Shown here one piece after another: positions 4,936 to 35,329 of a DNA stretch of 64,000 bases. A program made the position numbers and the translations under genes. Within the stretch, counting starts at the first letter, position 1, and each line of letters starts with the position of its first letter. Source of the stretch: Hoplostethus atlanticus. Lineage: Eukaryota > Chordata > Actinopteri > Trachichthyiformes > Trachichthyidae. A model generated the notes under the pieces. The model ran no database searches. It had not been told where the DNA came from and saw only the letters and a program-made list of their open reading frames with translations. Location: contig JAXDDX010000003.1 in assembly GCA_034670405.1 (NCBI GenBank), forward strand, positions 7,754,501 to 7,818,500, read 5' to 3'.

Positions 4936-4993
4936 CTGACACATGGAGAATTCCTACTAGAAATACAATTCCAATAGAAGTTGGAGACATCAT
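4936..4993 (-). CDS. robo1: robo1 proximal alternative first coding exon (signal peptide)
   Basis: Reading the minus strand, ATG at 4993 (tandem with a second ATG at 4990) opens a 19-codon frame, MMSPTSIGIVFLVGILHVS, ending in G|GTAAGT at 4936/4935, a near-perfect splice donor in phase 1. The peptide is a short hydrophobic signal sequence. The split codon supplies a glycine, giving ...HVSG joined to the shared SRLRQED start of Roundabout Ig domain 1. This matches the layout of the mammalian short ROBO1 (DUTT1) and ROBO2 isoforms, whose first exon encodes only a signal peptide ending in Gly. The product would be the secreted leader of a single-pass Slit receptor used in axon guidance. The second ATG has A at -3 and is the better start; the first has T. 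It is the first exon closest to the gene body. The Ig1 exon is outside the window, so splicing is inferred. Confidence 0.8.
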
Positions 4994-5960
4994 TCAACGT
5001 CTCTCTCGTATGAGAAAATATCTTGTGTAATCCAAATTATTCGAAAAGCAATGTAGGCATCCGCTCCTTCATGTCAAATTGCAAAATAAAATTTCAGAAT
5101 CCAGAGTTTTAAAATATAATACCCAGGCTTTTAGTTTGTAAAGCAATATAGCGTTACAGTCCAAGAGCAGTTTTTATCAACAGCTTGCTTTGGCTTCTCA
5201 GATAAAAAGGGTTAAAATTACAAAAAAAACAAAAAAAACTGTTCCAAACAACCAATAAACTCAATATAACACGTTGTTGATATGAAGTATCAGTAGTTCC
5301 CTTGAACTGAATGACAGCATGTGTTAAAAGCGTGCAGGGATATTTTAGCAGAGAAGTAGCTCGGCTCTATCCTTTCTTTGAATTCATCCCGTTTCTGCGG
5401 TGCGCGCAACGGCCAAGCGATCTCATTCAAACCGTGTAGATCCTTTGTGCTGTGCAAAAAAAAAATAAAGAAATGAATAAACCACCAACTGAAAGTGAAG
5501 TCTCAAGTGAGTAAAATAAAGTGAGTGGTCGCTGTGGTCCACGCTACAGGCTGCTATCCTTGCTGTCACATTATTTCAGTCCAGTTTTGAATCTGTCACT
5601 TGAGCTCGGAAACTTTGCGAGTTAGTCCTGTCCTCCCTCATCCACCAGATCCAGACAGAAGATCAGTCCAACTTTCCCATCACTTTTCCCTCGTTCGCTT
5701 CTGTTCGCAACTCCGATTGATCCGCGTGTGCGCCGCAGACGCCCGAACCTCAGGGAAGGGGGGGGCGATACGGATTCACATTCACAGCATTTCATTCAAG
5801 GAGAGCGGAATGCCTCGTCAATTGGTTTGTGCCTTTCTACCCCCTCCATAGACCCGACACTGTTTCCCAGAGAAGAAATTTAACCTCTTCCCGCCTGGAT
5901 CCCACAGAGCGCAGCGCAGTTGCAGCGCACATAGGCTACTGTATTGTAGCGGACCAAACC
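4994..5960 (-). other. robo1: Probable 5' leader of the proximal robo1 first exon
   Basis: Sequence upstream of the ATG at 4993 carries no signal that forces a splice, and passes from AT-rich (about 5000-5350) to GC-rich (5600-5960), as in long neuronal leaders. Several upstream ATGs occur. One opens an 11-codon ORF (5072-5037, ending in TAA) just before the start, and another a 17-codon ORF starting near 5850. If the leader is really this long, translation of this isoform is probably restrained by these uORFs. The transcription start is not visible; the right-hand limit is a guess from composition. Confidence 0.45.
5560..5960 (-). promoter_or_regulatory. robo1: CpG-rich stretch, probable proximal robo1 promoter/TSS zone
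   Basis: Within an AT-rich neighbourhood, about a dozen CpGs crowd into 5689-5772, with further CpGs to 5950, just upstream of the leader of the 4993-4936 exon. The sequence right of 6000 turns AT-rich again with TATA-like strings (for example around 6040-6060). This pattern suits a weak CpG-island promoter firing leftwards. No initiator could be assigned. Confidence 0.4.
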
Positions 5961-8323
5961 AACAGATAAAGGAAACCACGCAGAAGTAATCGGGCAACTT
6001 GTTTTTCATCCCTTCTGTAAAGAAACGAAAACTATAATAATGCTATAATATTCTTATAGAGACTTGTAGTGCGGCTGTGGTACTCAATAGTCAGCTTAAA
6101 GAGATATATTTTTTTAATATCCTATGGTAGTCTATACCATGCCTATAATATTCCAATATTAGCAACTATAGTTTTGATATATTTGTGTAATATCCCTCTA
6201 AATTGTATTATAATATTACTATAGTTGTGGTTGGTCAAACAGTGTAAGTCTTCCCTTTTAATTCACAAACTTGGGAGTTGTTATACACTTACAGTTAATG
6301 CTGTTTTACACTGCAGGCTTAATGTTTCCACATATAGCTCTTAGCCTGCTTCAAATATAAGGCTCATATAAGTACAGGCTAATGGTACTTTGCTACCACT
6401 GCTACTCTGAGCTAACCATGAGTTTGTTGGGTATTTATTGTTATGGCATACACCCTACATTTCCCTGTTACATTCACAAATACAAGTACTCTTATAAGCG
6501 AGTTCAAGTGGTTAATAATTGGTTTATCCCAGTGACCAATATTCCCATTTTCATTATTTATTATTATTATATTTATTATTCATTATTTGAGATCATATTT
6601 TACTGTCAATCTCCTCCAAAAGTGTTCTTCCATCTCTTTCTTCAATTGAAATCTCACCAAATTACTTCTTGGCCTATCTGCGAACATTAATTTTCAATAA
6701 TGTCCATCTACTATTGCCTTACAGCCTTTACACTGAGGGGTAACGTACCTAAGACACGGAGTATCTTTATAAGGTCGGATATACATTATTCATCACCATC
6801 CGAGCATAAATCTTAGATAGATCTAGATAGATCCAAAACGTAAAAAATAAATGACAGCATAAACCTGAAGGCCGTTTCATTATATGCCCTCAGTCTAACT
6901 CAGCCCAAGCTGCTCGGTAGACCCCCCACTGAACATTCGTTACCAAACAGCGCCCTCCAGTGACCATCATCTGAACTAACCTAACAAGGGCTTTTACACA
7001 CCATGTTCTGCTATGTGTGTTCAGAACATACTGGTATAAGATGCATGTAAGCTTATCAACCCATTAGTGATCTAGTAGGCCCAAACCTTTTCATGTCAAG
7101 GATCCCCAGATAGATGCTCTTTGGACCACAGACCCACATGTGATGTTGGTTTTGTCTCAAGGACCCCCATGAAAACCTTTGTTGCCTGTCTATATTCTAG
7201 CCGGGGAGATAAAAGTGGAGGAAGTGAAACCCCTGAACCCCCCCCCAGAAACTGAACTATTGTTTATGTGGCTGGGGAGCCCCTGGAACCCCCTCAAGGA
7301 CCCCTGGGGGTCTCTGTATCCCAGTCTCCCTCATGATGAGTGATGAGGGCAGCCTACCTCACTAAAATCCTTCTTTCACCTCCTACTGTGCTTTTATTTC
7401 TCATTCATTCATATATGCCTTATATCTAATCATAGTTTTACATGGTCCATTCCCACTTGGTCCCGCCGTGCCTTGTTTTCCAGAAAGCTTTTACTGTCCT
7501 GGATCTGTAACTGGCTGCTCAGCTGAATACTTTCAATTGAATAGTACATTTTCCTGGAGCCAGCAGGAGGAAACTGTAACATAGAAGCAATTATCAACAA
7601 AGTACCCACTTAGACCCGCCAGCATGGGGTCTGCGAGGACCCGTTGCTACAGGAGGATGTGAGCTGTTCGACTTTATAGAGAGAAAAATGGCAGTTTTGC
7701 TGAAATGAAACTGTCACAGAAAACAGACAATCACAGTTCAGTCACAGCATATACACATATCTCTTTCTCTCTCATTTTGTTTGTAGGAAATTAAGGAATA
7801 ATTTGTTTTTTCTTGAGAGATTGATAAGGTAAAACAGCCCATCATTATAAACGCAGTAAGAGGTGAAATGTAGGCTCCTCCTCGCCCCCGCCTCCTCATC
7901 CCCCTCCACCACCGCTAATTGATAGCCTAATGTTGGACCTACTGTTGTGTTATGATAGCTGAATAGGGAGGCTCTCCTTTCTCTCTCTTCCCCTCCCTTG
8001 CAACCTTGATCAGACCAGCACAGAGGCAGGAAAAATGACATGCTGTCTTGGCCGTGATGGCAGCGGGCCTGAGGTGGAGACATCAGAGAGCTTTTAACAC
8101 CACCGCCAAATCACTTTCCCACAAAACAATCCCCAAGCATATAAAAGGTAGAAAAGGACAACAAACTTCTCCATCTTTGACGGAAACCACTCCAGGGCTT
8201 TAACCCGTGACGTCTGTAACAACCGCTAAAGAATAGCAAAACAACTTTTTGATGCTGTCAAACATTTGAAGAGTCATTATTTTCTGTATGCTGGTTATGT
8301 AATACAGCACTCACTGTACTTAC
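5961..8323 (-). other. Non-coding DNA between the two proximal first exons
   Basis: Intron for the distal isoforms. 6000-6700 is AT-rich, with many TATA/ATTA strings and no coding frame. 7075-7330 looks like an old dispersed repeat. The rest to 8320 shows nothing I recognise. A minus-strand GTAAGT at about 6283-6288 has no ATG-initiated frame leading into it. Confidence 0.6.
7075..7330. repeat. Possible old dispersed repeat
   Basis: A GC-rich block built around recurring AAGGATCCCC / AAGGACCCC words, unlike the flanking AT-rich DNA. The recurrence within the block and the sharp composition change suggest an interspersed repeat, but I cannot assign a family. Confidence 0.3.
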
Positions 8324-8549
8324 TGTGAAAGATCTGGTTACATTTGTGTGGCTTGTTGTGGGAATGCCTCAAAGTCTGGTGGTTTTGGTGAAGTCCAAAC
8401 GCGTTAGCCAGCAGCCGTTTGCACCAGTGGGACTGGGAGTTCTGCGACCCAGTGTGATGATGGGCTCCATGCAGACCCTTATGGTCTTTAGGGACCCCCA
8501 GCATGACCAGCATGGCAAGTAGCACCACCAGCAAACACACAAGCTGCAT
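8324..8549 (-). CDS. robo1: Candidate robo1 alternative first exon with His-rich N-terminus
   Basis: On the minus strand an ATG at 8549 (GCC before it, a good Kozak) opens 75 codons and one base, ending CACA|GTAAGT at 8324/8323, a perfect donor core in phase 1 like the two best-supported robo1 first exons here. Residues 1-19 (MQLVCLLVVLLAMLVMLGV) are a strong signal peptide. Residues 20-75 are hydrophilic and histidine-rich (12 His, including HHH at 30-32) with two Cys at 43 and 70. The split codon A|GN would give Ser or Arg before SRLRQED of Ig1. I know no described ROBO isoform with such a segment, so this may be a lineage-specific leader or an unrelated chance frame. Support comes from signal peptide, donor strength, phase, strand and position between two other first exons. 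No homology is recognised. Confidence 0.5.
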
Positions 8550-11458
8550 GGCGACTGGCAGCACAGACCAGCCTGGCTAGGCTTGATACAGCTATCATAA
8601 AAACACACTAGTTCAATAGGTCCTCCAGCAGGTGTTCACTGTAGATTGCTCCCTCAAAAAAAAAAAAATAACCCAGAATTGATTGTTAACATCCAAATTG
8701 TGAACGCACCAAATCCCAGCTACTCCTTCAAAAGTAACAATTAAGAAAAATGCAGGAAAATGCAGCTACAAACTGCAAAGAGTACGGGTGTACCTCCCAG
8801 CAAGAGTCCTTGATGCTACTACCAATAAGATCTGCCAAACACATAAACGCCTGCAGGCTTAGCGAGCCTCCTAAATCCAATGACAATGTTTCCCCCAGAG
8901 GACGACGGGACCTTAACGAGGGGAACTCTGTATACAAAGTGCATAGTGAAGTCCAAGCCCCTCTCTATCTCCCCATCCATGCCTCTCAATGGACAGACCC
9001 TCTCTCATCTTCCCGCCCTATTATCTCTGATAAAACATTCAAAAGGGAGTTTGTGGACGCTCCGTCTTTTTCTCATGATGTGTCTATGCGTACAGCAGGA
9101 CGGGGGATCCTGTAGACTGCATGCTGGGAGTCCCTTTGAGACGCGTTGGACTCCTCACAAAACCTAGGCCGTCTCAGCGCAGAGGTGATGGGGTGACACG
9201 CAGGCGGGGTGAGGCAAAGGAAGCCCACATTCCCTTCCCCCTGACTAAGACTATTTAATGGCTTTCATTCCCAGCCCACCGGCTCACAAAACAAGATGGC
9301 ATAAAACAAAAACCTCCCCCCCCCCACCTCAAAAAAGATACTCCCCGTTGAGAGGCAAGCACAGCACTCCTCCTCAGAGAGAGTGGTGCATTTTGGGAGC
9401 TGGCATTCCACTGGAAAGTTTTACGGTGCCCAAAAAATAAATAAATGAGGAGGTAGACAGAAACTTGTCAAAGTTGCAGGTAGAGTCACCTTGGTGAGGG
9501 AGTCATAGGTATGTTTGAGCTCCTTTCACTGGCACTTTAGCTGGATGCTTACCATACTTCACTCGCCTCCACATTCACTCCAGCCTTTTATCATTCAGGT
9601 CCCGTCCTTGAGGAACCATCCATTTATTTATTTATTGTGCTGCTTGTCTCTTTATAAAGACAGGAATTCAAATTTGCCAGTCTTTGTCAGTTGGCAATGG
9701 GCAGCGTGTCTCCAAGGTGTTTTGAAAAGATAAACAGGAATAACACGAGGTAAAAAGGATTGCGTTTGATTGAGTTCTTTCAGCGTTTTCCAAGACAATC
9801 AGGTAAATAGCTGGAGGGTGTCGCTGTCCTGCTTCTGTTTTCTGGGGCTGTGATCCAGTTTACAGTTACACAGGCAGCCCATCGCAAATCACAGGCAGGA
9901 TCTATGCTGAATGAGTGAAGCAGTCAGGACCGCGTCGCCCTTCGCCAGGAAGGGGCGAGACTCTGAGGACTGTTTTCTGCTCATAGACAACAGACTGGTG
10001 TGGAGTAGAAGTTAGGACATTGGATAAAACATACTCTGACTGATGGCATCAATTTCCATGATTTCAAAGCCAGGTCCTCTTCTCCTCAGATACCAACCTC
10101 AGTGGATGTCCAGAGGCAGAACGTGCAAGTGCAAACAGATGGGATTGCACTTACCCAACTAAGCCTACATTCATTCCATTTCTTACAACCACATGGAGAT
10201 CTCTCATTTTTACAGCTTCCTGTAGGCAGGGGACTGTTGTATGATTGATATGTGTGGTGACTTGAATCTGCAGGATATATCATGTTGAATGAAGAGTGCT
10301 TTGTCATGCAGTGGGCTTATCCTAGGAAGACAACTCTCACATTCTGTGTCATGGCACTCTTGAGAGAGAGAGAGAGATGAATTTCGAGTGGCGTGGCAGA
10401 TGCTTAACATGGAACTGACAAGGAGCAAAAAGGGGCGGGAGACGAGACGCTAGATGAGGGAGGAGAAGAGACAATCGGGGCTGTCTCAAGACACATTGTT
10501 ACCCAGAGCGAGATGACCTGCAGTCCTGAGGAAGTTACAAATCATACTGGTGTCACTGTACCCCTGCAGGAGGCTACAAATCATCTCTGATTGCAGGTTG
10601 AGGGAGTGGCGAAGCTCCAGGAGCACAAGACATGCCACAACTAAGTGCGTGATGAAACCAGCCATGCTTAGAAAATCTGCCGTGTCTGATTTCAGGTCAA
10701 ATGAGCGTTTATATTTCTCGTTAGTGACGAACATCACAGTTTCTAAAGGTAGACGAGACACACTACAATGCCTTGTGAAAGCTAGGATGGTCAACAGGTA
10801 CAAATGACATGGTTTGGGTCTGTCTGACACATGGACAAGGGACTACAGCCTGTGGGGTAAACTCAACACGTTGGCTGGTCACACTATGACCACATGTATT
10901 TAGATCAAGATACAGGCACACATACCAGCAGAGACTGAAGTCAAATAATGTGCAATCCTGTCATATTTGTGGAACATTTGAGGCAGAAACCTGAGTGAGG
11001 CCATCTTACTCTCTCTGTCCATCCTGGGCAATGCTCTGGTCTTTCAGCTCCATGAAAGAGCTCCAAGAATGCATCTCTCTGGGCTGCAGCCCAGCGCAAA
11101 TACAGAAAACTCACTCAAATAAGCCTCACAAGTAAGCCAAAAAGCGTTTTAAAAAACTGGGCAGGGCTAAAAATGTCTCTTGTCAACATTACATTGAGGG
11201 AATGCCAAAGAGAGAGAGGGAGTACGAGCAAAGAGAGAGAGGAGGGAGAGGCTATACAAAGCAAGTAGGATGCAAAGCAGAGGGAAAGAAAATATAAACA
11301 GAAGAGTGAGAACATTCTCCTCCTCACTGTAGCCTCTCTGTTCAGCTTTCAGACATGATAAAAAAGACAGGGGTCTACTGAAAGAAAATGACAGCAAACT
11401 AAACAAATCTGTTTCTGTTTAGGGAGTGCCCCCATGCATGACGACGCTGCAAGAAATT

Positions 11459-11494
11459 GGGGGGGGGAGGGGGGGGGGCGGGATTGGGGGGGGG
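11459..11494. other. Poly-G tract, strong G-quadruplex pattern on plus strand
   Basis: Runs of about nine, ten and nine G, broken only by A, C-GGG-ATT and similar short spacers. It exceeds the usual four G3+ run rule. It lies on the strand opposite to robo1 transcription, so it would be template-strand G4 or C-rich RNA. Confidence 0.6.
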
Positions 11495-12134
11495 CAGACA
11501 GAGAGGAGAAAGAAAGAGGGGGAGCTTCACAGGATGCCGCGATGTGGTTTGGAGCACAATGCAGGATGGGGCGATAAACAGACTGTTGCTTTTCCGCCTG
11601 CCTGCTCACACTGAATCCCTTTTCCCTGTGTCTTTTAATGGGCCTCACATTAGCATCTGTTTAGCGTCAGCCTCGACATGGCCTGGGGAGGCCGGTTGAA
11701 AATGAGTCTGCTATCATAGCACATCCTGCAAGCAACACCGAAATACAGTCAGACGTCTGGATATTTTGGCAATAGACATCCAGAAAGCTATTCTGAACCT
11801 CCACAGCCTGATAAACATGTACTGTAGTAGCTGCTCCTGTTCAAACTCTTTTCTCAACATATTTGAGGTTTATTATACTAGTAAAGACAAAAGAGTACTG
11901 AGTGTTCAACCTTGAAGATTAATATGTAGCGCTTCAGCAGCACGGTGTCCAATTTGTGCATCGCCACGCATGACTGCACCAGCAGAACAAGCAGATTCAC
12001 AATTAGACAAATTGAAAGTATCTGTGCCGACTATCCCTCTCCTCTGGGGACGCTCGGCTCCTCATCGTCAGACTGCTGAATGACCTGCACCCCCCCTCCG
12101 TCCCTCATACAAATGCACGGTGGCGGAAAAAAGT

Positions 12135-12335
12135 AAAGCATTGTGGGTTTCATGCCTAATTGGCTTAATTGGTTTAGAGGCAGGAGAGCTTTAATGACAG
12201 CGGGGCTCTGGGTAACCGAGCCAAGAGATTCCTTTTGTCCTTTATCGCTATGGGACTCCAGCCAATCACATGACAGCAAGCTGCGAGACAGGATCAGAGC
12301 TGAATCAGAGCAACCGTCCAGATAAAATGATGTCA
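12135..12335. promoter_or_regulatory. Candidate conserved non-coding element (TALE/homeodomain motifs)
   Basis: Non-repetitive island with CTAATTGG (12156-12163) and TTAATTGG (12165-12172) in tandem, then AATCACATGACAG at 12264-12276, which contains a TGACAG MEIS/TGIF-type core. Such pairing is common in hindbrain and neural enhancers. Conservation and activity are inferred from motif density only. Confidence 0.35.
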
Positions 12336-12600
12336 TACATGTTAGGTACCTACGTAATGGTTGTGAGCCTTGACCTTGGTTTGTAGCCTCTTTGGGTCAG
12401 TCAGTAAACATTATCTCTATAAATAGATGAGATGAGACAATAGAGATGTGACAGCACTTTAGTCACAATAATAGAAGCTCAGTTAAGCATTCAGACCTTT
12501 AACAGTGTGAAAGTCAAAAAATGAGATTTGTTGACTCACTTAAATGCTCAGTTCTCAAGCCCAGACAGAAGGATGAAAGGAGGGAGAGGAGGGGAGTATC

Positions 12601-12602
<2 letters not shown>

Positions 12603-12652
<50 letters not shown>
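12603..12652. repeat. (TG)n microsatellite
   Basis: About 25 uninterrupted TG units. Confidence 0.97.
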
Positions 12653-12657
<5 letters not shown>

Positions 12658-15600
12658 GTATTAAATTCAGCACTTGTCCAGATCAGAGTGTAAACTATTT
12701 GTTTTATTTCCACTAGGGGGATCGGCCTCCAGTCAATTTCCTTTTTTCATAAAAAATGTCTTGATATTCCAGAGACAACAGCACATTTACTGCAAAATTT
12801 CGAGAGGCTAAACAAATATTCCTCCTTCAAACCATTTTCTTTTCACATTTTCATACCTTAGAAGACAAATCGATCGAAACACTAAAGACACAAAGACACT
12901 TTCAAACCTCAGTTCCAAGCCCAAACTGCCGCAGGACTGAAAATTGATGGGACATTAGTTTTTTCCTCAGAGTTATTCCTCCTAGAAAGTTTCCAGAGCT
13001 GCACTTATAACATCATTCTGTAGTAGTTGTGGTTTTGAAGGAGCTCACATCAGTGACTGATCTCTCTCTGAAGACCCTGAGCCCAGAAAAATGCAAAGAT
13101 ACTCCTCATGCTAAAAGCATTCGCCATCTCTCAAATAAAAAGCCTATTCTTTCTTTCTCTCTCCCCGGTGCGATCAGCTGCCAAAACAAACCGGCGCTGT
13201 GATGGATGTAATAAATATGATCGATGGGATATCTGGCACCGCTGACCTCACACCACGCGCCAGAGTCCAGGGAGCAGGTGCTGCTCGGATTTACAGCCTT
13301 CATTTCATGATATTCTCCTCTCTCGCACACCAGGACCCGAAGCCCTGCTGAGACACATCCACACCGCCGAGCCTCCACAGCCCCCTGCAGCACCGGGCGA
13401 GTCTAATAGGTCTAATACCGGCCCTCGCTGAACCCGATGTGCAACATGACTATGTATGAATCATATCATCGCTAATAAAACCAGTAACGAGTTCGCCTGA
13501 TCATAAAGCCGTCAGTCATGGCTGACAGTTATTGGACTCATTGGCAAGGGGGAGACAGGGCTGTCAGGTAGAGAAGCGCTGTATCTGTTGGCTTGTAAAG
13601 ATGGCTTATTGACCAGGAAGCTGCTGTAGTGCAGATAGCTGGCAGACACATACTCTGACTGGGAAAGCTACTGTCTTTCTCTGTCCGTCTATTAGAAATC
13701 ACACTGCTCGGCAGGTCGCTTAAAAAAACCTGTAACTCTAACATTATATGAAGTTAGAAACAGCATCGCAGTGCCTCTACACAAAGTGTCTCTCTGAAAC
13801 AGCAGAGCTTCATATAGGGTTTCTCTATGTCATGCATAAGGTATGTTACTTGAGGAGCAGTAGGCTATACGTGCCTGGCTCCGGTGTGTGTGACAGGTTT
13901 TTCCTCTTTCCTTTCTCCAGTTTGGACATAAAGGTGCGTGTGGACTTGTAATGTATAAGCAGGCTGGAGAAAAAAAAAACATGATGAACTGTTTTGTTTG
14001 GTGTAGCTCACAGCTCACAGATTACTCAACCCTGTACGTGAAAATGTGTCAGTGCTAGAGAATATGAGTATATGAGAATATGAACCCACCAGCCCTTATA
14101 AAGAGAGCAGAAAACATTTCCTCCTCCTCCCTCCGTGCAGATGGAGGAGAGTGTGGGCCTTTTACATCCGAGGCAGAAAAACACTCATCATCTTTTCACT
14201 TCGACATCGAGGGTGTCTGACAGGGCAGGGCCAGTTGATTATTAGCACTTACAGTAAAACCTCATCCAATCTCCTTCCCAATTATCACGAGAACACTAGC
14301 AGCGTGAATGTGAATATCCTAATAAACCTCATACTCTTTGTTTCTTTCAACCCCTGCACACTCCTACCAATTCCCATCCCAAATCCTTTCCCCCCCCACC
14401 CCACTCCAGCTCCTCTTGACCACATTACCCCACCGCCACCCTGAGAAGAACGGCTAATGGACCCATTTCCTTGGACGGTGCTAAATTAAGCTGTGCGGAT
14501 CAGGGAGATGAAAAGAGATTGGATGGGGAACAGAAATAAGCCCTCCTGGCCTCAGCAGCTCAGAGGCTGTGGGGAAGGCTGTGTGCGGGACATTAGCGCA
14601 GGGTTATAACTAATTATATCTCAAGTGAATCGCTCCTCCATGCACATGACGGGGATCTTGCTCTATTGTTGCTCCGGTAAGAAACGAAAAGTGTCTTGTG
14701 GTTCTGCACCGGGGATGATGTGCGAGAGAACAGCTGGCTGAACATGTATAGTACTGTCTGTGCTCCTCTCCATTGTGAGCACACCAAGAGTGATGAGCAT
14801 AAGCGAGTGTCGCGGAGATGTGACACGACGCCGCGCTGACTCTCTCGGGTAATGGATGTTGGGGGCGACACTGTCAGGGAAATTGGTTTTCAGGGTGGGG
14901 GGACTCAAGGCCAAAGCAGCAGCCCTGTAATGAGAGCAAAAGGACGAATGGAGAATGGAGCTCTCCATCTCCCTCATGTATAGCCGTCAGTGCCGCGTAT
15001 CCGGACGCAAGCCGCTCCACCTCTACATCAATAAAGGGAACGCAGACACGCCGTCTCCGCCCACTGTTGGCCATGAGTACGCAGGCAACCGACAAGCAAC
15101 AACACTGGCTTCAAGCTACACTCAAAGCCACATGGACGCTGTCCTCGCCTTCATCACTGGCTGCACAGCTTGTATACTTTTGATAGAAATTGAAGAGTGA
15201 GAGCATTGTATCGAAGTGTGTTGATGGATATGGTCTTGTCTATCTGTGCGATCTGTGACTATCCAGCGATATTGACATCCTTGGCTTTGCAGCTTTCAGC
15301 GAGACTTTGCTTTGTTCTCACGCCATCATCCGTCAGTATATCCATCAGTACAGTGAATGGTTTGTTCTCGACGTTCAGGGGCACCCCGGCTTCAGGAGAA
15401 GATAAAGTAGTGCGGCTGTCTGGACCCCCTTCTATTCTGTAGCCAATCAGTGCCGGCAGCGTGGCGACCTTCAGTTCCCTCACTTTCTCTTAGCATCTTT
15501 ATTTCCATAACCTGACAAATAGAGCAGCTCTGTGAAGTTGCGGTCCTTTTGTGATCTGTGACAGACGCAGTGGTAGGCTGTCAGCGGGGAGGGAGGAATT

Positions 15601-16429
15601 GCTGATGTGCTCTCTAAAGTCACGCTCAGCCTTTCATGTCAAGGCAGGAGAACCAAAGACCTGTCTCCTCTGTGTGTGTGTCTGCCCGCCAAGCCGGGGC
15701 TAGCAAGGTAAGTGCAAGAGTTTTAGCATGCCGCTGTAATCTTCACACAGGTCACTCTCATTCATTATGGATATGAAGTTCGGTGCAGGGCTCTTTGATA
15801 TCGGGAAACAATTTGGAGCTGGCCGGGAGTCAATTTCTTGAGGGACCAATAAAAAATACTGTTAATGTATTGTGAAGTTCAGGTCCGTGTGTAGTTCCTA
15901 ATAAAGTTCACAGTCGGCTCTATTAGTCCCAGGTGACTACCGTACTAGTTGCTGCTGTGCCATTGCCTGGTTTTGTGCCAGCTGCTTGTAGTTTTATACG
16001 AACCACCAAGTAAAGTAGGTCTGGTTACAGCATCAGTCACCTTAGGGCAAAATTCGTCCCTCAGAGTGATGCATCTCTACCCTGTATCTTAGCTGTATTT
16101 ACTGTGTACACTACAATGACGTGTTACAGAAGGTCTATTCACTGCCATGTGTTGGGAGTCTGATCAGACACACAGTGACAGTTGAATGAATCAATGGACC
16201 TCTTTCCTCCATGAAGGACACGAAGATCACATGACAAAGGGCCGCAATTAAACACAGCCCGGCACCCAACAGATTCTTCACTGCAACGTTTGAAGGTGAA
16301 CTCCATTTTCACCTGAGCCGAAACTGGCAGCTGTCAAGATTATCTTCACGTTCAACTTCACTTCACCAGCCAGTCACGCTCTCTGAAAATGGAGTCTTTG
16401 GCAGCGGTCCACTTTGTTCTATCAGCGGC

Positions 16430-17054: not shown

Positions 17055-17056
<2 letters not shown>

Positions 17057-17099
<43 letters not shown>
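17057..17099. repeat. (TG)n microsatellite
   Basis: About 21 TG units, about 0.5 kb past the donor of the 17.6-kb exon. Confidence 0.97.
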
Positions 17100-17100
<1 letters not shown>

Positions 17101-17562: not shown

Positions 17563-17836
17563 CTGTGTAGCCCAAAGAGTTGTCATCCTCATGCTCGGCG
17601 GTGGGAGCCGGTGTTGCCCCTTCGCTGGCCCCGTCCTGAGCGGCTCCCGTCTCTGTCAACAATAACACCACAGGGACTGAGAACCCTGACACATTCTGCC
17701 CACTTCTTTCCCCACCCACGGTCGCTACCTCCTGCCCTCCGCCACCCTGGCACAGGCAGAGAGAGAGCGCACTGAGCAGCGCCAGGCTCCATCCTCGTAG
17801 CCTCCGTCCCCGGCTGCAGAAAGCGAACACCCACAT
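17563..17836 (-). CDS. robo1: robo1 ROBO1-type first coding exon (signal peptide plus N-terminal linker)
   Basis: This exon identifies the gene. From ATG at 17836 the minus strand encodes 91 residues and one base, ending ACAG|GTACCG at 17563/17562 (phase 1). Residues 1-30 form a signal peptide: a basic stretch RGRRLR, then a hydrophobic core SLALLSALSLCLC. A Gly/Ser/Ala/Thr-rich linker with an N-glycosylation sequon (NVS, 48-50) follows. It closes with PTAEHEDDNSLGYT plus the split Gly. Mammalian long ROBO1 ends its unique N-terminus almost identically (DDNSLGYTG) before the shared SRLRQEDFPPRI of Ig1, while ROBO2 lacks this motif. The product is the leader of a single-pass Slit receptor that repels commissural axons. 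I prefer ATG 17836 (G at -3) to an in-frame upstream ATG at 17968 (T at -3), which would place 44 mostly polar residues before the signal peptide. The internal linker differs from mammals, as is usual for this unconstrained part. Confidence 0.87.
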
Positions 17837-18100
17837 CACAGTGATCAACCAAACATCCACGAGTCTCCGCTCCAGCTGCAGCTGTGTATAATCCAGTCTA
17901 AGTGTCTGGGTTAGCAGGATCCGGGGGAAAAATGGCGTCAGGCGCGTGTCAATCAAATTGTTGAGCATAGATCCATGAGGGAGATGTGCATAGGTGGTGG
18001 TGCGGTCTTCAGCAGGAAGAGGAAAAGCTTGTCTAACTCAGCTCAGCAGGAGTGTGTCCTCTTGTTGTGCTGTGTTGGGGTGGCCATGTTCTGTCTGTGT
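17837..18100 (-). other. robo1: Probable 5' leader/promoter side of the 17.8-kb robo1 first exon
   Basis: Upstream of ATG 17836 lies an in-frame ATG at 17968 and, in another frame, a short uORF starting near 17990 that ends about 40 bases later. No canonical TATA box or CpG island is evident. The transcription start cannot be placed. Confidence 0.35.
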
Positions 18101-20972: not shown

Positions 20973-20973
<1 letters not shown>

Positions 20974-23112: not shown

Positions 23113-23113
<1 letters not shown>

Positions 23114-23151: not shown

Positions 23152-23153
<2 letters not shown>

Positions 23154-24385
23154 TTGTAAATTCAAAGGGAAAGGGAAAAGCCAACCTCAAACAAAATTCA
23201 CATGTTTTCCCTCTAATCTTGGAGAATTCCATCAAAATGCTAATGTGAACAATTCTTTTCCCCCCGAGCAGAAAACCAAGCCTCTAATCTGTGATCCCTT
23301 CAAGCAACACACTCTGGAGCGGCTCCATCCACCATCCACGGCTCCGCGGGATCACAGAATATTTTGTTTGAGCTTTTACAATTTCACTGTATTCCATAAT
23401 AAGGCTAACTGTTTTCACACAATGTGCCCACATCCTTTGAAAAGTACCAAAGGTGTGGATACTGAGTCAGTCTCCTGTTTATTATAAATTGTATTTATTT
23501 CAAACCAGACAAAAGCTTGACATGTCATGTCTATAGCTGTGGGTGAGACTTTTGTATAGAAATCTGTTTATAAAATCCAGCTTGTGCCCCCTTGTACGCC
23601 TTGAGGCTGCTGCTGTCATTAGCTGTGTGTCACGACCACAATGGAGGGGAATTCTGCAACTTTTTAATAAGGGATCCAGAGAGAGGAGAAGATCCACCGG
23701 TGATGCATCATCTCCTCAGTCTTTGATGCGATGACATCCAGCCTTCAGTTTGTACCCGGCCTAGCTATTAATCTCTCTCTTACTCACAAGCTGTGTTATG
23801 GTCCAAACAAATGAGCGAACACCAAATGCATGTTGATTTGGCAATAGTTTGCCGAATAGCTTCTCTGACACTGACACGATTGCTTCACACACTTTTTCTG
23901 ACCTTTGTGTGAATACAACCAAGAATAGAAGCTGAGTTGTATAGAAAAGACGGACAAAATGGACAGTCTCGCACAGTCACAGTTTTGTTGGTTTGGATAT
24001 TTTGTTTTTGGTAAATGAGTTTGTCTGAAAACGATATGACAATCTCATCTAGATCCAAAAATATCAATGAAAATACTAAGCATATCAACGTGACATCAAA
24101 CCTACAGATCCTTAAATGATTCGTGTGGGGGTTCATGTGGCATCGGTGTGTTTTATGGAACTCCAGATATAGCCTGAGACCGATGCACCAATAATGAACA
24201 CAAGTACATCATTGCAGAGTAGCTCTTCTCCAATTTGTTGTTGACAAGGTGTTTTCACTCCCAGCAGCTTGATAACGACTTCAATGTAATTACTTGGTTC
24301 ATTTTTCTATGATTGCCGATGTCACAGTTCAATCGCCATCAGATCTGAAGTCGAGCAACCAGCAAGCACTATCTCCCTCCTCCAG

Positions 24386-24386
<1 letters not shown>

Positions 24387-24430
<44 letters not shown>
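24387..24430. repeat. (CT)n microsatellite
   Basis: About 22 CT units; a pyrimidine tract able to form triplex DNA. Confidence 0.96.
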
Positions 24431-24433
<3 letters not shown>

Positions 24434-27309: not shown

Positions 27310-27495
27310 TGGCCTCGTCTCCTTCCAGATTTCAAATTAGCAGATTCATTAAAGAAGGGGTTCATTTGGGGTTTTCTGGTACGGAGGGCCGCTGCCAGTC
27401 TTCATTAGGGCTGATTACTACCGCTGCCAGTGCTGGCCTCGCCACTGACTCATAAATTGTGGATGATTCCCTATTGTTCCCCTAGTCACCTTCCA
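27310..27495. promoter_or_regulatory. Candidate conserved non-coding element
   Basis: Repeat-free segment with two GCTGCCAGT words about 50 bp apart, TTCATTAGGGCTGATTAC, and ATTA-type cores, immediately left of the SINE-like repeat. Weak, composition-based call. Confidence 0.28.
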
Positions 27496-27550
27496 TCCAG
27501 CATAGCAGTCCTAGCTTACAAAATGATTGGGAAATATTAGCAAGCACAAA

Positions 27551-27821
27551 AACAGTGGCTTGATGGTTAGTACTGTCACCTCACAGCAAGAAAGTCCTGG
27601 GTTTCTGTGTGAAGTTTGCACATTCTCCCCGTGTTCGTGTTGGTTTCTTCCCACATTCCAGACGTGGAAGTCAGGTGAATTGGAGACTCTGAGTTGCCCA
27701 CGGGAGTGTCAGCGTGTTTGCTCTGTGATAGCAACCTGTCAAGGGCGTTTCCCTGCCTTCCACCCAATGCATGCTGGGATAGTCTCCAGCCATGACCATG
27801 AATAGGAATAAGCGTGAATGA
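27551..27821 (+). mobile_element. Degraded teleost SINE-like dispersed repeat
   Basis: The order of words matches a repeat that is very common in fish genomes: GGTTAGTACTGTCACCTCAC, then TCCTGGGTTTCTGTG, AGTTTGCACATTCTCCCCGT, GGTTTCTTCCCACATTCCAG, AATTGGAGACTCTGAGTTGC, CAACCTGTCAAGGG, GCTGGGATAGTCTCCAGCC, and an AATAGGAATAAGCGTGAATG tail. It carries many substitutions and deletions relative to the consensus I remember, so it is old. The family name is not assigned. The ORFs crossing it are not genes. Confidence 0.75.
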
Positions 27822-28377
27822 AAAACAGAAGACCTGTTTGAGATAAAAGACCTTAAACTGTAACTGTCTGTACGTGGTGGACTGCTGCATATGGTGAGAA
27901 TGGAGAACTCTTCAGGATTACAGCTGCAATATATACTCAACATTAGATTCAACTGCATCTCCTCTGTGATGTCAATTGACGTTGACTTCAAACCAAAAGA
28001 AAATCTTCGGTCCGTGTTGTGGAAACAGATGTCTCGGGTATCTCCACATCGATGCATGTGGACTGCAGAAAACACAAGCTCAGAGTTAACCAGTGTTTTG
28101 TGAGGAATGTATTTCCATCATGACTGTGCTGATGATGGAAGAAAGAGCTGGGGGGATTCTTGTGGGGGAAATGATGTGTGCAAATGCTGTGTCAGCGAGA
28201 CAGGGGATGCTGATGCACAGACCTCCACATTTCCCACCATGGCCAGCCAACCACTGACACAGCTGGATTGTGCTTACTCTAATGTAGAGCTGCCGCCATG
28301 GCAGCCACACAGTCAACAGCACTGGAGTGGCTATCAGACTGTGATATTCCAAACCTTCTGCGTAGCCTTCCTGTAGG

Positions 28378-28588
28378 GTGAAAACCTTGTATCTCCAAAG
28401 TGTCAACTTTTCAGGAGTTAAGAAAAGCGGCCTTGCTTTCAGCTTGATGACGATGCACTTTTTTGAGTTTGTCCAATTGGGTTTGAAAGGGCTCTATAAG
28501 AACTTCCTCAACCCATAGAGGAGCCATGTAATCCTTCAACTGACGTGAAATATGAAATTCACCAACATCGGAGTTACAAGGTTTTCAC
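28378..28588. mobile_element. Short inverted-repeat DNA transposon (MITE)
   Basis: GTGAAAACCTTGTATCTCC at 28378-28396 is matched in inverse orientation by GGAGTTACAAGGTTTTCAC at 28570-28588, with one mismatch in 19. The element is 211 bp and has no coding capacity. Its internal sequence recurs, diverged, at 32.3 kb in the same orientation, which supports a mobile family. No clear target-site duplication is seen. Confidence 0.7.
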
Positions 28589-29969
28589 ATGACAACAGCA
28601 ATATACCACATTACACGCTTTTAGCTTAAAGCCAAGGTAGACAGTAGACAAGCAGCCAATGTTCCAAGGGTAAAGGTCACCAGAGAACTTCCTGGTCCTG
28701 TTTGACCGCAGCAGCAACAAAGCACCAACGTACCATGGACATGTCTAAGTACTGCTGGTGTCGCCCATAACTTGAAATAACCCTCAGCTTGTGTAACTCA
28801 TGATGCCTCTGGTCAATAGCGTGACCAGAATGTGTCACAACAGAGTGCCTTGGGTGTAAAGATGTTCTGGTTGATGGAGGTGCGAGGCCTCACCTATAAT
28901 TACCACTTCATCAGTGAAGGCAAGGGGAAGCAGAGGCCCAGGCAGAGCTCTCTCTGGGACGGTAAACAGCTTGTCCTGCCTTTACTGTGGTCGGATGGCA
29001 GGCTCTGCTGCTGCCAGCCAGGCAGACTGTCTGCCCTACGTGCATGCCTGCATTTGTGTCTGAATGCCCTATGTATTTCAGGAAACCCAAAGAGAGACTG
29101 TCTCATCAGCGAAAGCGGTAATGAAAGAACTGACAACTTGTTCTTTAAAAAGAACTTGAATATTTATACACGCGTACGCAGAAATCTGCAGAGTTTGTTT
29201 CGTCTGCAGCATTTCTTTGAAACAGCAGTGAAGAGCACAGCTTAAGAAGATAGAATTATAACGCAAGATTCATTTTTATGCTTGCCAGAAACACTTAAGT
29301 CTCTGTAACTCTTCATATTTTCAGGGTTTTTTGTTGAACTGTGCAGATGTGAAATGCCTCTACTGGGAATCTAACAGGCCTGCTGATGTTACTACTTCTG
29401 CTGTGGCTGTTTAGGAGCTTGTAGTTTTTGGGGATTATAGCAAATTTGCACTTGTATATGCACTGACTTGTCTTTGTTTTCTGTTTCTTAAATAGATATC
29501 TAGTAATACTTTATTTAGAAAGAATTTAAAATTTGAAATAAATGGAATATTTATATATTTAAAAATGAACCCCCACAACTAAGCCCACAATTATTCACAG
29601 ACAATTTATTAAACTTATTTACAATAATCATTACATTACAATTATTTATAATAAATGAGGTTATCATGACACCCTCCACACCCAACCTGTCAATCTCGTC
29701 ACTCATCAGTCATGATGTTATCCAACACTGTATACCATTAACTAGTAGCATCCCAGCTGGCAGGCATGTAACTCGTGCTGTGCTAGTCATGTTTGTCTCC
29801 TATGTCACATAGCAACTGATTTTAGGGGACAATCTGATTGAAATACACACAACAGCTACAATATCCACATGTTTTAGTTATACAGCAGTGTGCTCTCATG
29901 GCCTTCTGCCCTGTCTAAGCAAACCTCAAGTAATTAGTTCTGGATTGTCATCTTCAGTTAGCCTCTACT

Positions 29970-29998
29970 AGTCATCTCACCGGGGGGGTGAGATGACT
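29970..29998. other. Perfect 12-bp inverted repeat
   Basis: AGTCATCTCACC (29970-29981) and GGTGAGATGACT (29987-29998) flank a GGGGG loop. Stable as a hairpin in DNA or RNA, but too short for a microRNA precursor. The role is unknown. Confidence 0.8.
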
Positions 29999-30739
29999 GA
30001 CACTTTCTCAAGTCGATGGTTGCTCTTTTTCAACTCACTCAACTGTGCACCCTAATATTGTCTCTATTGAATATACTTCACAACACACTGTATTGCTAAC
30101 GATTTCAAAGAGACACTCTTACATATGACAGTTTCTTTCATATTGCATATTAAAGACAATTCCTCAGCATCTGAACGCTGATAGAAATACTCGGTACGGT
30201 TGAAGGGCTACAGAAGGAAGAGCATCAAAGTCTCTGGTGTCAGAAAAAACAAAAGGAAATACATTAGAAGGACACATAGAAATGCTATATGTGGATGTAG
30301 ACTGAATCCAGATGTGGAAAGCAGGACATCTGTGTGCGCGAAAACATTTCCCTAAGTAAAAATGATGGAATGAAAAATAACAAAGAGGCATGAAAATGGG
30401 GGGGATAAAACATCAAGGAGTAGTGTCATTTGATTTTTAACCTCTAAAGACCTGCCTCAGCACTTAATGACCCTTGACCCCTCCATATCCTGAGAATCCC
30501 AGCGGCCAGTGTTTTCACTCTGGCCCATGCCTTTCACAGCCCCATATTTATGGGCCATGTCTGATCTACACTGTCCACCTGTTTTTTCGCTTCCCTTCTG
30601 CTGAAACAGTTTCAATCCCACTCATGATTTACAGTATCCGCGGTTGTTTTTCCTCTTCATAAAAACAACAAACAGCCAAGGATTGTCTCTCTCTGCACCA
30701 AAGAAACTCGGGATTCCAGGAAAAGTGAAGCAAAAGCCG

Positions 30740-31100
30740 CTGCAAAATAGGATTCGATTTTGCACGGCGTGCGTTATTAGACACCGCCTCGCGTGAGAGA
30801 GAAATACAATCCTTCTGATATCTTGATTTTGCCGATATAGTAAGGGACGGCGGAGAGGCAGGTGCCTTACACTTTGTGCACCGTGGTGAAATGAGTATTC
30901 AGACCGATTGTCAACCCCGAGGCTCGCCCTCATTACAGCCCCGCCATTACCCAGCCTTCCGCGGGGCTGTACTCTGGCTGGTCCCGACCTTGAGTGTGAC
31001 ACGCGGTAATTGAGATTCTCAGCTCATTGTTACCTAATTAAAAAGTGTCTGAACCTTCTGGAGCCTCGGAGAGAATTAGGGGAGTGTGTGATGGAGAGCA
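30740..31100. promoter_or_regulatory. Candidate conserved non-coding element
   Basis: Repeat-free and richer in CpG than its surroundings, with TAATTG at 31007-31012 and CTAATTA at 31034-31040. It ends before short poly-A tracts at 31130-31165. It resembles vertebrate developmental enhancers by composition only. Confidence 0.35.
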
Positions 31101-32275
31101 GGGCTTGGAGAGAAAGAGCAGCAGCCTTGAAAAAAAAAAAAATGACCTCCAGAAAAAAAAAAAAGAAAACATCTGGGTCCTGGTGCTCATTAGCACCTGA
31201 ATTAGTGAATTAGTTTGTGTGTGTGTGTGCAACACATTTCCAAAATATATAATGATATATGGCAGGAGGATAACAATGCACCTTTTTGTAATTTAGTTCA
31301 GATAGTAGATGTGGAAGTGAGAGAGGGGTGAGGAGGGAACATGATGAAATACCACAGTCTTTATAATCCCTCCTTTGAAAGATAGTTTCTCTATTCAATA
31401 GCATGCATTCCCTACACACAGTGAAGTACGCAGAGTGAGTGTTGTGTGCCTGACGGGGGCCTGGGCTGGTTTGGGCCGTGCTGCTGCTGATGAGAGCATC
31501 TCTGTGGTTACGACTGTCTGGACCCCATCTGGCCTCTGACCTAAACCACAAGACTCAGCCCACAGCTCATTAGCAGCCTTTCATTCCACCCTAACCTAGA
31601 GGAGCATTCGGTTCACTCCGGCGTGCTGTACGTCACTGTTGCCATCTATTGGATGGTTGAGTTCATATCCCTTGCATGTACTATTCCAAGAGGAAATGAA
31701 TTCATGCGATACTAAAACCTAAAACTCAAATGTACAATAGAAGCGGTGCAGTTGTGAAGACCCAGCAGAAAGTTGTTCAAGTAAACCAAAACCTGAGACT
31801 TAAGCAAAAACATATTTACTGTCAACTACACAGTGGACAGCCGGTCCAGACAGTCTTGCAGGCGGTGCTATTTATGTCACACAAAGCACAAAATACAATA
31901 CGGCCAACGCTGTTAAAACCATTGTTAAAAAGAAGCAGTCAGACGTTGACATCTCCCACTTCATCTACGTTCCCTGCAGCAATAAACATATCAGGTAAAA
32001 ACTCCAGTCTGTCTGATGGAAATAAGCGTCCCGTACTTTGATAAGATTGTTATACTGCCGGTCTAGGAGGCAGCCGGCCAGGTTTCGGCTCCTATTAGCT
32101 TCGGTAACGATGTAAATCTGCCGTAAATCCCATAATCTGCCTCATCCATCACGGCGATGAGGCTGTCAGGGAGCAGAGACAAAGCCTCACCAAACAGCTC
32201 AAGGCCAGTGGAATCCCACACATCTGGATTTGGGACTCAGGAGGGAGACGGTCCGCCTCGATGACTTGTATATCA

Positions 32276-32475
32276 CTGTCAGGTTAAAACCTCGTATCTC
32301 CAAAATATCAACGTTTCAGGAACTAAGAGAAACAGCCTTGTTTTTAGCTCGATGCCCATACGTTTATGAGTTGATCTGATCGGTTTTGAAAAGGACTGTA
32401 GAATTTCCTCAACCCATAGAGGAGCATGTAATCCTTCAATTCAAGTTAAAATATGAAAATCACCAAAACGCTCGT
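32276..32475. mobile_element. Second, 3'-degraded copy of the 28.4-kb MITE
   Basis: It begins TTAAAACCTCGTATCTCC and tracks the 28.4-kb element through TCAACGTTTCAGGA and the shared CTTCCTCAACCCATAGAGGA-type segment (here with TTTCC) to ATGTAATCCTTCAA and ATATGAAAATCACC. The right inverted repeat is lost. I judge overall similarity to be clearly above chance, with many substitutions. Confidence 0.65.
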
Positions 32476-32816
32476 CTTCATTTGTAAATAATGTCAATAT
32501 ATCAATAATGAATGATGGTGTAATTTGGACTGTGGGTCATCCCACCTGCTGCATGCAGCTGCAGTGTTCTCCTGAGTGTCTCGACTTGTCCAGCCAGTGG
32601 TTGTAAAAAGTCAGAAAGAGGAGAAGACCTTGAAAGCAGGGAGTGAAGCTTCAGGCTGGGGTTGTGTGAGGGGAGGATTAAGGAAGGATCATAGGAAGGG
32701 ACATATCTGAGACGTGTGTGCTGGAGGAGACAAGTCGTCACTAAAAATAAAAAAGCGGTGTTTTATTTATCACAAATGCACGCGCACGCATGAGTGCAAG
32801 CATACACTACACTACA

Positions 32817-32818
<2 letters not shown>

Positions 32819-32865
<47 letters not shown>
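32819..32865. repeat. (AC)n microsatellite, left arm of an inverted pair
   Basis: About 23 AC units. About 50 bp further right lies the complementary (GT)n array. Confidence 0.97.
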
Positions 32866-32867
<2 letters not shown>

Positions 32868-32915
32868 TCCCCTTTTATGCATTAGTCTCACTGGGTTCAT
32901 GTTCAGGCCAGTTAG

Positions 32916-32918
<3 letters not shown>

Positions 32919-33007
<89 letters not shown>
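32919..33007. repeat. Compound (GT)n(GA)n microsatellite, right arm of the pair
   Basis: About 28 GT units (32919-32975) run into about 16 GA units. The GT array can pair with the (AC)n array at 32819-32865 in a long hairpin. Confidence 0.97.
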
Positions 33008-33010
<3 letters not shown>

Positions 33011-35199
33011 GATGTGTCTGTATGAACTCTAGAGGTGCAGGTCTTGCTCTCCTCTTTTCCCAGTCTAAGAAGAGATTTACTCTCAGGCAGCAAATAACAC
33101 CTTGTGACATTATCACTTTTATCGGCAGTCTGCGCTCATGCATGTCACCATCCTCTCTTCCACCGTGGGCTTCATCTGTGTGTAGACCAGAGCATGGCAC
33201 GTCTAGTATCCAAGTGACAAGGCAGATAAACCCATAGACTCTTTTAGAGGTCATGTTTTCATATCTTAGTGGCATACAGCAGATAAAGGATGTTTCCTTA
33301 CTCAGAATCAATCTAATCACAGCCACACGAGGCAAATTTAAATCGCTACTATCAAAATTACTCTTAGCCATCACCTTCCTCCCATGATGCATTTCTTTCT
33401 TTCACAAAATCCTATCAAAAACCATCCAAAGGGTTGAGGTGTATAGCGACGATATGGCCTTCTCAATAATCAGGTATTATATGAACATTCAACGTAAGAA
33501 AGTTGTAAATGTTAGTACTAGTGATTAATTGTAGTTATTAGAATTGCACTTTCCCTATGGTAGATGAGAGGACCAGGCCACTATTTTAAATCAACTGAAT
33601 CTTTATGAAGAGGAAGTGTATGAAACATGTGGCTGGGTCCACTGTCGTAATCCCAAACAGGGCTGCAAACACCTGTGTGTTTTATAGGTGGACTTAACTG
33701 AGTGAAACCTGTCCATATGTGTGCGATTCTCCCCAGTCTGGGTTCTCTGAGAGGCTTAGGGTCAGGTAGAGGATGACGCGGACTCAGAACTCACAGCTGG
33801 ACCGGGCGTCTATAACTCTGCTGTAAAAAAAAACCCCCACATGTTATCAATAAAGTTGAATGACAGGGAGAATGAACACCAGCTTTTTGTGTCTAGTTGG
33901 CGTGGTGTTTCTGGTGCGTATAGAGGTGGAGAGGTTGAAGTATAGAATAGCTTTGTAGCTGTTAGCTGTAAATTTTGTGAAATTAGCCTTCAAATGTTTT
34001 CTTCAACAACTACAATCAAAGTTCCAGATAGACTCCAACCTGTATCCTCTCAGCAGGGCTTTCACACTGCACACAGCCCAAAACACTCCATGCCCAGAGC
34101 CCTTATCATCCCTCTGAAAGCACGGTGATAGCAGAGTGCAACGCAAGCATGCTTTTTACATTTTGTTTTTTGCACATATTCAAAGAAAACACACCAAATA
34201 AAACCCACGAGCTCGAAACGTCGCGGTGTCATCGTCATCTGAAAGCTGTAAACCTGCGTATCCCCTTTTTCACGCTCACGTCTCCTTGGAGAGGCAAGTG
34301 ACCTGCTCTGGGGCTGACTTAGTGCCTCTCCCGTCCTGCTCCAGTCATTTAATCTTGGAACGGTATCAAGACAGCGATCTCCCTTTAACCTCCAGAGAGA
34401 GGGACGGACACAGAGGGACACGCTCGCCCACTTCATCACTCAGCGTCGAGCAGCAGTGGTGGTATGCCAAACAATCCCATTAGCCAGCGGTCTCACGGCT
34501 GGGGGGGAAAGCAGCTCTGTCCAGAATCAACCACAGCTCTCTCCTCCTTTGAACATCCTCTACTGGGGCAAAAAAACATCCATGCACTTATGTGTCAGCA
34601 TATATAATGAACTCCCACACGCCTGCGGAGCTACACTGCAGCTTTTACTAGGAGGAAATAGACCCCATCACCCTGAGTAGCTTTTTACAACTCAACCGTG
34701 ATCAATTAATGACTGAGAATGAGGCGCTGAGAGATGATCGTACAGGAATATGAGAGAGCCGAGAGAGAAAGTAAAGTACCTTGAGACGGATAATAAACTA
34801 TGAATGGCAACTCGTAGCAAAGCCCAACAACAGAGAGACACTTTTCACAGTCACGTACAGTACTGAACCTCTAAAACCTGCCAATGCACGTCAAGGTTGT
34901 TGGCCTCACGCAGAGGATTTCTTTCTTCCTCGCATTCAAGTGTCTGTCACAGAAAAATCGAGCCGAGGCGCCAAAAGCAGCCTGAACAAACAGGATAGCT
35001 CACGATGCTCGGCGCTTCCTGCATTTCTCACGTCAATAGAGGGAAATAAAAAGGACAGTAAAAGACGTAAAAGGTAGAAGGAAAAGGGTTTGGCGATGCT
35101 TGACGGGAAAAAAGGTAAAGGAAACAGAGAGGGAGGAGAGAGAGGAAGAGAGCGAGAGAACAGAGTGGTTTAGCAGAGGTAAGAGGAGGAGTTACTCAC

Positions 35200-35329
35200 G
35201 GCTCCTGTCACCTTTCCACCTCCAGCTTCCCTTGTACCTCCCTGATCCGTCCCCTGGTACACAGACTCCACTCAGCGCCTCCAGCAGCAGCACCAGCAGC
35301 AGCACCAGGGGCATCCGCCCGCTAGCCAT
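35200..35329 (-). CDS. robo1: Candidate distal robo1 first exon (signal peptide)
   Basis: On the minus strand ATG at 35329 has a strong Kozak context (GGC before, G at +4) and opens a leucine-rich signal peptide, MASGRMPLVLLLVLLLEALS, followed by GVCVPGDGSG and a short basic tract RYKGSWRWK. Two donors end it, both in phase 1. AAAG|GTGACA after 35212 gives 39 codons and a split Gly, matching the ...G-SRLRQED junction of Roundabout. AGCC|GTGAGT after 35200 gives 43 codons, adds DRS and splits an Arg codon. A stop (TAA) follows just past the second donor. Strand, phase and signal-peptide design agree with the other robo1 first exons. No homology of the peptide itself is recognised, and it could belong to another minus-strand secreted or membrane protein. 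The coordinates use the longer option. Confidence 0.58.

Follow-up and report, generated by a model that had tools for sequence, protein, structure and literature searches.

Four minus-strand segments that resemble signal-peptide exons lie in a 64,000-nucleotide (nt) stretch of Hoplostethus atlanticus DNA (contig JAXDDX010000003.1, positions 7,754,501 to 7,818,500; hereafter the window), which we assign to the 5' part of robo1, a gene for an axon-guidance receptor. A direct sequence check confirmed, at the coordinates claimed in an earlier note on this DNA, that each segment starts with an ATG, encodes a hydrophobic stretch and ends at a phase-1 GT donor. The segments, and the exon candidates that were derived from them, are given in Table 1.

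Table 1. Segments and candidate exons of robo1 in the window.
Feature	Position	Strand	Description
Segment 1	4993-4936	minus	58 nt; ATG, open frame, hydrophobic stretch, GT leaving 1 base
Segment 2	8549-8324	minus	226 nt; ATG, open frame, hydrophobic stretch, GT leaving 1 base
Segment 3	17836-17563	minus	274 nt; ATG, open frame, hydrophobic stretch, GT leaving 1 base
Segment 4	35329-35212/35200	minus	118/130 nt; ATG, open frame, hydrophobic stretch, GT leaving 1 base
Segment 1, candidate robo1b/Dutt1-type first exon	4936-5950	minus	coding 4993-4936, 19 codons and 1 nt, MMSPTSIGIVFLVGILHVS-G
Segment 2, orphan candidate first exon	8549-8324	minus	75 codons and 1 nt; hydrophobic leader, then His-rich stretch
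Conserved 3' part of segment 3	17652-17563	minus	E-TGAAQDGASEGATPAPTAEHEDDNSLGYT-G, read as a phase 1-1 exon of 90 nt
Segment 3, 5' part with upstream sequence	18006-17653	minus	intron (preferred reading) or part of leader exon 18006-17563 (rival reading)
Segment 4, candidate long-form coding exon 1	35356-35200	minus	acceptor 35356, ATG 35329, donor after 35212 or, 12 nt on, 35200
Tentative untranslated exon a	52483-52750	minus	strong donor after 52483 (6.58); upper limit inferred; CpG-rich stretch 52200-52900

The peptide DDNSLGYTG, which we, like the earlier note, take to be the tail of the ROBO1 long form, is encoded at 17587 with 9/9 residues identical; the six frames contain no other full match (the runner-up has 5/9), and the segment that ends in it has a phase-1 donor after 17563 leaving 1 nt. 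When the segments were compared with six mammalian peptides (36 comparisons, p values based on shuffles), segment 3 scored 67 in its alignment with the human exon-2 peptide (p = 0.001, the lowest value that 1000 shuffles allow). The assignment to robo1 is thus borne out by the DDNSLGYTG match, and the common phase 1 that had been claimed for all four segment ends was found as well. On balance we lean towards the view that the window holds the 5' part of fish robo1 with the mammalian two-promoter layout in a compact form, in which segments 4 and 3 together make the long form and segment 1 makes the short form. Three of the four segments would then account for the two N-termini already known. 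No common Ig1 exon turned up in the window: an exact search with 14 Ig1 peptide patterns retrieved nothing but RQED, twice and out of context (54119 on the plus strand and 59152 on the minus strand), and the five minus-strand frames of at least 80 residues in 1-4935 matched no Pfam Ig family.

The expectation by chance was obtained by scoring the combination of an ATG, a 10-residue hydrophobic core and a phase-1 donor, the null being the minus strand shuffled by dinucleotides 60 times within 2-kb blocks. Candidate donors numbered 14 on the minus strand and 3 on the plus strand, compared with a shuffle mean of 2.7. The number expected per shuffled strand with a score at least as high as that of the segment was 0.00 for segment 1 (0/60 shuffles), 0.13 for segment 2 (8/60), 0.20 for segment 4 (11/60) and 2.53 for segment 3 (53/60). 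This indicated that segments 1, 2 and 4 are unusual and that segment 3 is ordinary as a signal-peptide exon; its signal-peptide part was therefore rejected as an above-chance feature, and the weight of segment 3 comes from its DDNSLGYTG end. In a list of 20 donors ranked by less strict criteria, the claimed segments took ranks 1, 2, 6 and 14, the second donor of the one at rank 6 being at rank 9. Two further minus-strand candidates with ATG, hydrophobic stretch and phase-1 donor, at 21030-20973 (rank 4) and 21387-21297 (rank 5), outranked segment 4 in this list.

Donors were scored with an approximate vertebrate matrix, which gave 8.54 for segment 1, 2.81 for segment 2, 0.98 for segment 3 and 2.84/0.87 for the two donors of segment 4; acceptors were ranked among 4320 sites. 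Codon choice was expressed as the fraction of 1253 GC-matched open frames that matched or beat the synonymous codon choice of the segment, and these fractions are rough since the codon table was human and the compared frames overlapped. Rfam and ARAGORN gave no match in the window.

Segment 1 is best read as the first exon of the DUTT1/ROBO1b form. Its donor at 4936 is the best on the minus strand and the only one scoring at least 8 among the 3941 minus-strand GTs. The CpG observed/expected ratio was 0.81-0.94 in the 500-base windows at 5001, 5251 and 5501 (median 0.42), which ranked 5th, 2nd and 9th, and no acceptor scoring above 1 was found upstream of the segment in 4993-5300. A long 5' untranslated region (UTR) is likely for segment 1, taking in the CpG-rich sequence as far as roughly 5950, an estimated upper limit. 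Human DUTT1 exon 2 starts at mRNA base 1019 (PMC1270007), which puts DUTT1 exon 1 at about 1 kb. Segment 1, the most 3' of the four segments, shares with the DUTT1 exon a short leader, CpG richness, phase 1 and the position nearest to Ig1. That the window has at least one probable promoter-proximal first exon, as the earlier note proposed, was thus upheld for segment 1. Another CpG-rich stretch (0.81-0.87) is found near the left end at 1251-2000; a little past it, at 2038 and 2064, are strong donors on the plus strand.

Segment 4 is best read as exon 1 of the long form. Its codon choice is coding-like (0.025), its start context is good (GCAGGCATGG), and it can be joined to 17652-17563 in frame from either donor. 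The acceptor at 35356, 27 nt 5' of the ATG, ranked 55/4320; given such a good acceptor, segment 4 may not be a transcription start. An untranslated exon a further upstream may end at 52483. When minus-strand donors scoring at least 4.5 were filtered for a CpG observed/expected ratio of at least 0.75 in the 600 bases upstream, only those at 52483 and 4936 passed out of 25. The same filter passed 4/36 plus-strand donors, so that 52483 is not rare and is treated as a lead only. The CpG peak at 40 kb, repeat-like by eye only, was rejected as exon a, there being no minus-strand donor of at least 4.5 between 37861 and 41710. The 40251-40750 interval has the highest CpG observed/expected ratio of the window (1.09) in AT-rich sequence and looks by eye like a young repeat.

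The place of segment 3 in this layout is judged from the anatomy of human ROBO1. The human gene has an untranslated exon a, an exon 1 that extends 52 bp further 5' than previously known, and an exon 2 that corresponds to bases 89-169 of AF040990 and is omitted whole in a splice variant (PMC1270007). The coordinates give 81 nt for this exon and the same passage gives 88 bp, which is a mismatch within the source (PMC1270007). Given that human exon 2 begins at base 89 and is skippable, the signal peptide and the LGYTG tail are on different exons. If AF040990 begins at the ATG, the end of human exon 1 falls in phase 1, 29 codons in, which makes exon 2, with the LGYTG tail on it, in-frame and symmetric (phase 1-1). 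Segment 3 had been described as a first exon like that of mammalian ROBO1, and this was not supported, since the human start codon and the tail are on separate exons (PMC1270007). In the fish, an acceptor at 17652 scoring 1.87 was the only positive one among 8 phase-compatible AGs within 300 nt, the others scoring -3 to -12. With this phase 1-1 acceptor, segments 4 and 3 may form one N-terminus rather than two. The short exon 17652-17563 is provisionally preferred because of the human ROBO1 exon boundary. The ATG of segment 3 is not fixed by the sequence, as the frame is open for 67 more codons 5' of it, and the hydrophobic stretch begins about 17 residues in, after a basic stretch.

Several observations weigh against this layout. 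For segment 1, the presumed 5' UTR (5950-4994) contains 13 ATGs, codon choice is uninformative (0.657) and the peptide was not more similar to the mammalian ROBO1b leader than shuffled sequences were (p = 0.37), which is weak evidence either way because leaders diverge fast. Two unrelated plus-strand donors scored 8.52 and 8.17, near the 8.54 of segment 1, so that a high donor score is by itself weak proof. The segment 4 peptide gave no significant alignment with human exon 1 (p = 0.40), and the CpG observed/expected ratio was low (0.32-0.38) upstream of its ATG and 0.78 about 500 bases downstream. The lowest p values of the segment 1, 2 and 4 leaders against the six mammalian peptides were 0.156, 0.118 and 0.227, respectively. 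Given that these leaders matched no better than shuffles, their assignment rests on position, phase and signals. For the short exon 2, the acceptor at 17652 is middling (rank 305/4320), and 5/82 other phase-1 donors with an open frame have an equally good acceptor at 60-120 nt. Its donor is weak (0.98) and its codon choice is not distinctive (0.471), and coding-like codons occur in 17836-17729 (0.013) and 18037-17837 (0.040), where an intron is expected. In addition, an in-phase acceptor at 18006 scored 4.54 (rank 86/4320) and gives a 444-nt exon that includes the ATG at 17836.

This last acceptor is the basis of a different arrangement, like that of human ROBO2a, in which an untranslated exon would be joined, through the acceptor at 18006, to a single leader exon (18006-17563) with the signal peptide as well as the DDNSLGYTG tail on it; segment 4 would then be a separate start or no part of robo1. 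The acceptor at 18006 beats that at 17652, the stretch 17836-17729 looks both coding-like and leader-like, and human ROBO2a has a non-coding first exon followed by a leader-coding exon 2 (PMC7010700). On the other hand, codon choice in 17728-17654, directly 5' of the acceptor at 17652, is not coding-like (0.897), the leader of segment 3 is not above chance, and human ROBO1 has the start codon and the tail split over two exons (PMC1270007). We regard this arrangement as unlikely. Likeness of segment 3 to the human ROBO2a leader was not significant (p = 0.072-0.088). One of the 36 comparisons matched segment 3 with the ROBO1b leader (p = 0.004-0.006), and this was set aside as shared hydrophobic composition. 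The exon 18006-17563 would likewise be internal and not a transcription start. The codon pattern would also fit a mini-exon, 17836-17746 or 17836-17716, joined over a 93- or 63-nt intron to 17652, the donors scoring -0.74 and 1.51, respectively. Segment 3 had only a weak match in PDB (ankyrin-2, E = 0.038), and Pfam gave nothing for segments 3 and 4. The PDB comparison covered segments 2 and 3 and the Pfam comparison segments 2 to 4, segment 1 being shorter than 20 residues.

The earlier note had read the four segments as four alternative signal-peptide first exons, each transcribed from its own promoter and joined directly to Ig1. Four or five N-termini would result from such a model. All segments end in phase 1, segments 1, 2 and 4 exceed the shuffles and the first 36 codons of segment 3 are coding-like, all of which is in keeping with that model. 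It is set against the exon anatomy of human ROBO1 (PMC1270007), good acceptors that precede the ATGs of segments 3 and 4, and CpG enrichment upstream of only one of the four ATGs, and we consider it very improbable in its full form. Segment 1 is a likely promoter-proximal first exon; segment 3 is not supported as a first exon and segment 2 is a candidate only.

Among the four segments, the hydrophobic core is strongest in segment 2. It could be a fish-specific extra first exon, an exon of another gene (a nested gene) or a chance frame. Its codon choice was matched or beaten by 0.008 of the GC-matched frames (0.029 without GC matching) and its start context is good (GTCGCCATGC). The donor is near consensus on the intron side (GTAAGT) and poor on the exon side (ACA/GT), with near-equal donors at 8324 and 8315, and the segment has no CpG peak. 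Reading through the donor gives a complete frame of 84 residues. The best matches were weak, CTCF in PDB (E = 0.38) and only DUF5134 in Pfam (E = 0.042), and no relative was found in a viral-contig scan or among the mammalian ROBO leaders compared.

If segment 2 were a true third, fish-specific first exon of robo1, it would add a His-rich stretch of about 55 residues before Ig1. The strong core, the GTAAGT, the start context, the codon choice and the low expectation in shuffles are consistent with this, as is the fact that human ROBO2 has an extra exon between its a-form and b-form starts (PMC7010700); given the poor exon side of the donor, the two near-equal donors, the lack of a CpG peak and the lack of likeness to the mammalian leaders compared or to families, we hold it to be doubtful. 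It is fairly probable, in our judgement, that segment 2 does not belong to robo1, being either a chance frame or the first exon of a nested, unrelated gene or of a long noncoding RNA. The unusual His-rich composition, the absence of similarity to the mammalian ROBO leaders compared, the complete readthrough frame and the 8/60 shuffles with an equally good candidate point in that direction, against the coding-like codons, the strand and phase shared with the robo1 segments and the position between two likely robo1 starts. Both possibilities are compatible with the two-promoter layout that we favour. A quite improbable combination is that segment 2 is a genuine third first exon, with some 55 extra residues, rich in His and including two cysteines, directly before Ig1 at the Slit-binding end, and that 17836-17563 is also used as a fourth leader exon, which would yield at least four N-termini, some of them altering the mature receptor beyond the signal peptide.

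From the segments, their phases, the scores and the DDNSLGYTG match we infer the junctions, promoters and cleavage in the two-promoter layout as follows. For the long form (ROBO1a), an upstream untranslated exon, perhaps the one ending at 52483, would be spliced to the signal-peptide exon 1 (35356-35212/35200), this to the symmetric phase 1-1 exon 2 (17652-17563, ending ...DDNSLGYT-G) and exon 2 to the common Ig1 exon, which would lie left of the window. For the short form (ROBO1b/DUTT1), transcription would start in the CpG-rich stretch at about 5-6 kb, and the exon of about 1 kb ending at 4936 would be spliced directly to Ig1. With all N-terminal exons in phase 1 and exon 2 in phase 1-1, leaders are exchangeable and exon 2 can be skipped without frameshift; transcripts from segments 1 and 2, both located 3' of exon 2, cannot include it. 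The leaders would mostly be cleaved off as signal peptides, leaving in the long form a short acidic stretch in front of Ig1. Given that the leaders would mostly be removed, promoter control and this acidic extension would be the main lasting differences between the forms.

Were this layout true, the two-promoter system of ROBO1a and ROBO1b would be older than the split between fish and mammals, and the 5' region of robo1 in this fish would be short enough to be studied with promoter deletions and long reads. Phase 1 at every junction would account for a free exchange of leaders and of exon 2, and if the segment 2 exon is real it would offer an extra way of changing the Slit-binding end of the receptor.

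Elsewhere in the window, three perfect head-to-tail copies of an 81-bp unit occupy 59156-59401. An inverted repeat with 82-nt arms (49217-49298 and 51906-51987, 93% complementary, 2.6 kb apart) is possibly a mobile element, and an (ATCT)n array at 49059-49193 adjoins it.

Among the titles examined in a literature search, none dealt with fish robo1 first exons, and DDNSLGYTG occurred in no paper searched. Zebrafish and rat Robo2 isoforms (Dalkic 2006) and mouse Dutt1/Robo1 (Clark 2002, Nural 2007) have reportedly been studied. The RefSeq record NM_133631 is presumably the DUTT1 form. In human, ROBO1-TSS1, the start represented by NM_133631, lies 3' of TSS2 at a distance of about 749 kb in hg19, and both are conserved in mouse (PMC6389290); segment 1, too, is the most 3' of the starts read here. 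Two alternative N-termini of ROBO1 are already known, and hypoxia lowers especially the N-terminally longer human isoform (PMC3411717), which fits separate control of the two starts. The suggestion that the fish locus has more diversity than known was not upheld for the family, since human ROBO2 possibly has as many as ten start sites and more than 30 coding transcripts (PMC7010700). With two N-termini known for ROBO1 and similar pairs for ROBO2a/b and ROBO3A/B, the fish locus follows a known pattern, with segment 2 as one further candidate exon.

Compared with ROBO1a and ROBO1b (DUTT1) of human and mouse, the fish locus as read here is alike in having the long-form exons upstream and the DUTT1-type exon nearest to Ig1, and it has in common with them the DDNSLGYTG tail, phase 1, a CpG-rich DUTT1-type exon of about 1 kb and two promoters. 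It is unlike them in that the layout fits within about 30-50 kb, whereas about 749 kb separate the human promoters, in that the fish leaders are without significant similarity to the human leaders, and in the 90 nt of exon 2. The human exon has 81 nt by the coordinates, and 88 bp in the text, of PMC1270007. Human ROBO2a and ROBO2b resemble the fish locus in their alternative promoters, with a non-coding first exon followed by a leader exon for the a form and a single leader exon for the b form, and in an extra exon between the a and b starts with possibly ten start sites in all (PMC7010700). Human ROBO3A and ROBO3B also use alternative promoters that alter only the N-terminus, although ROBO3 is a different gene and its B form starts within the first intron of the reference gene (PMC5028924). 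Unlike the layout favoured here, human ROBO2 has its a-form leader on exon 2. Moreover, ROBO2 is presumably without the LGYTG extension.

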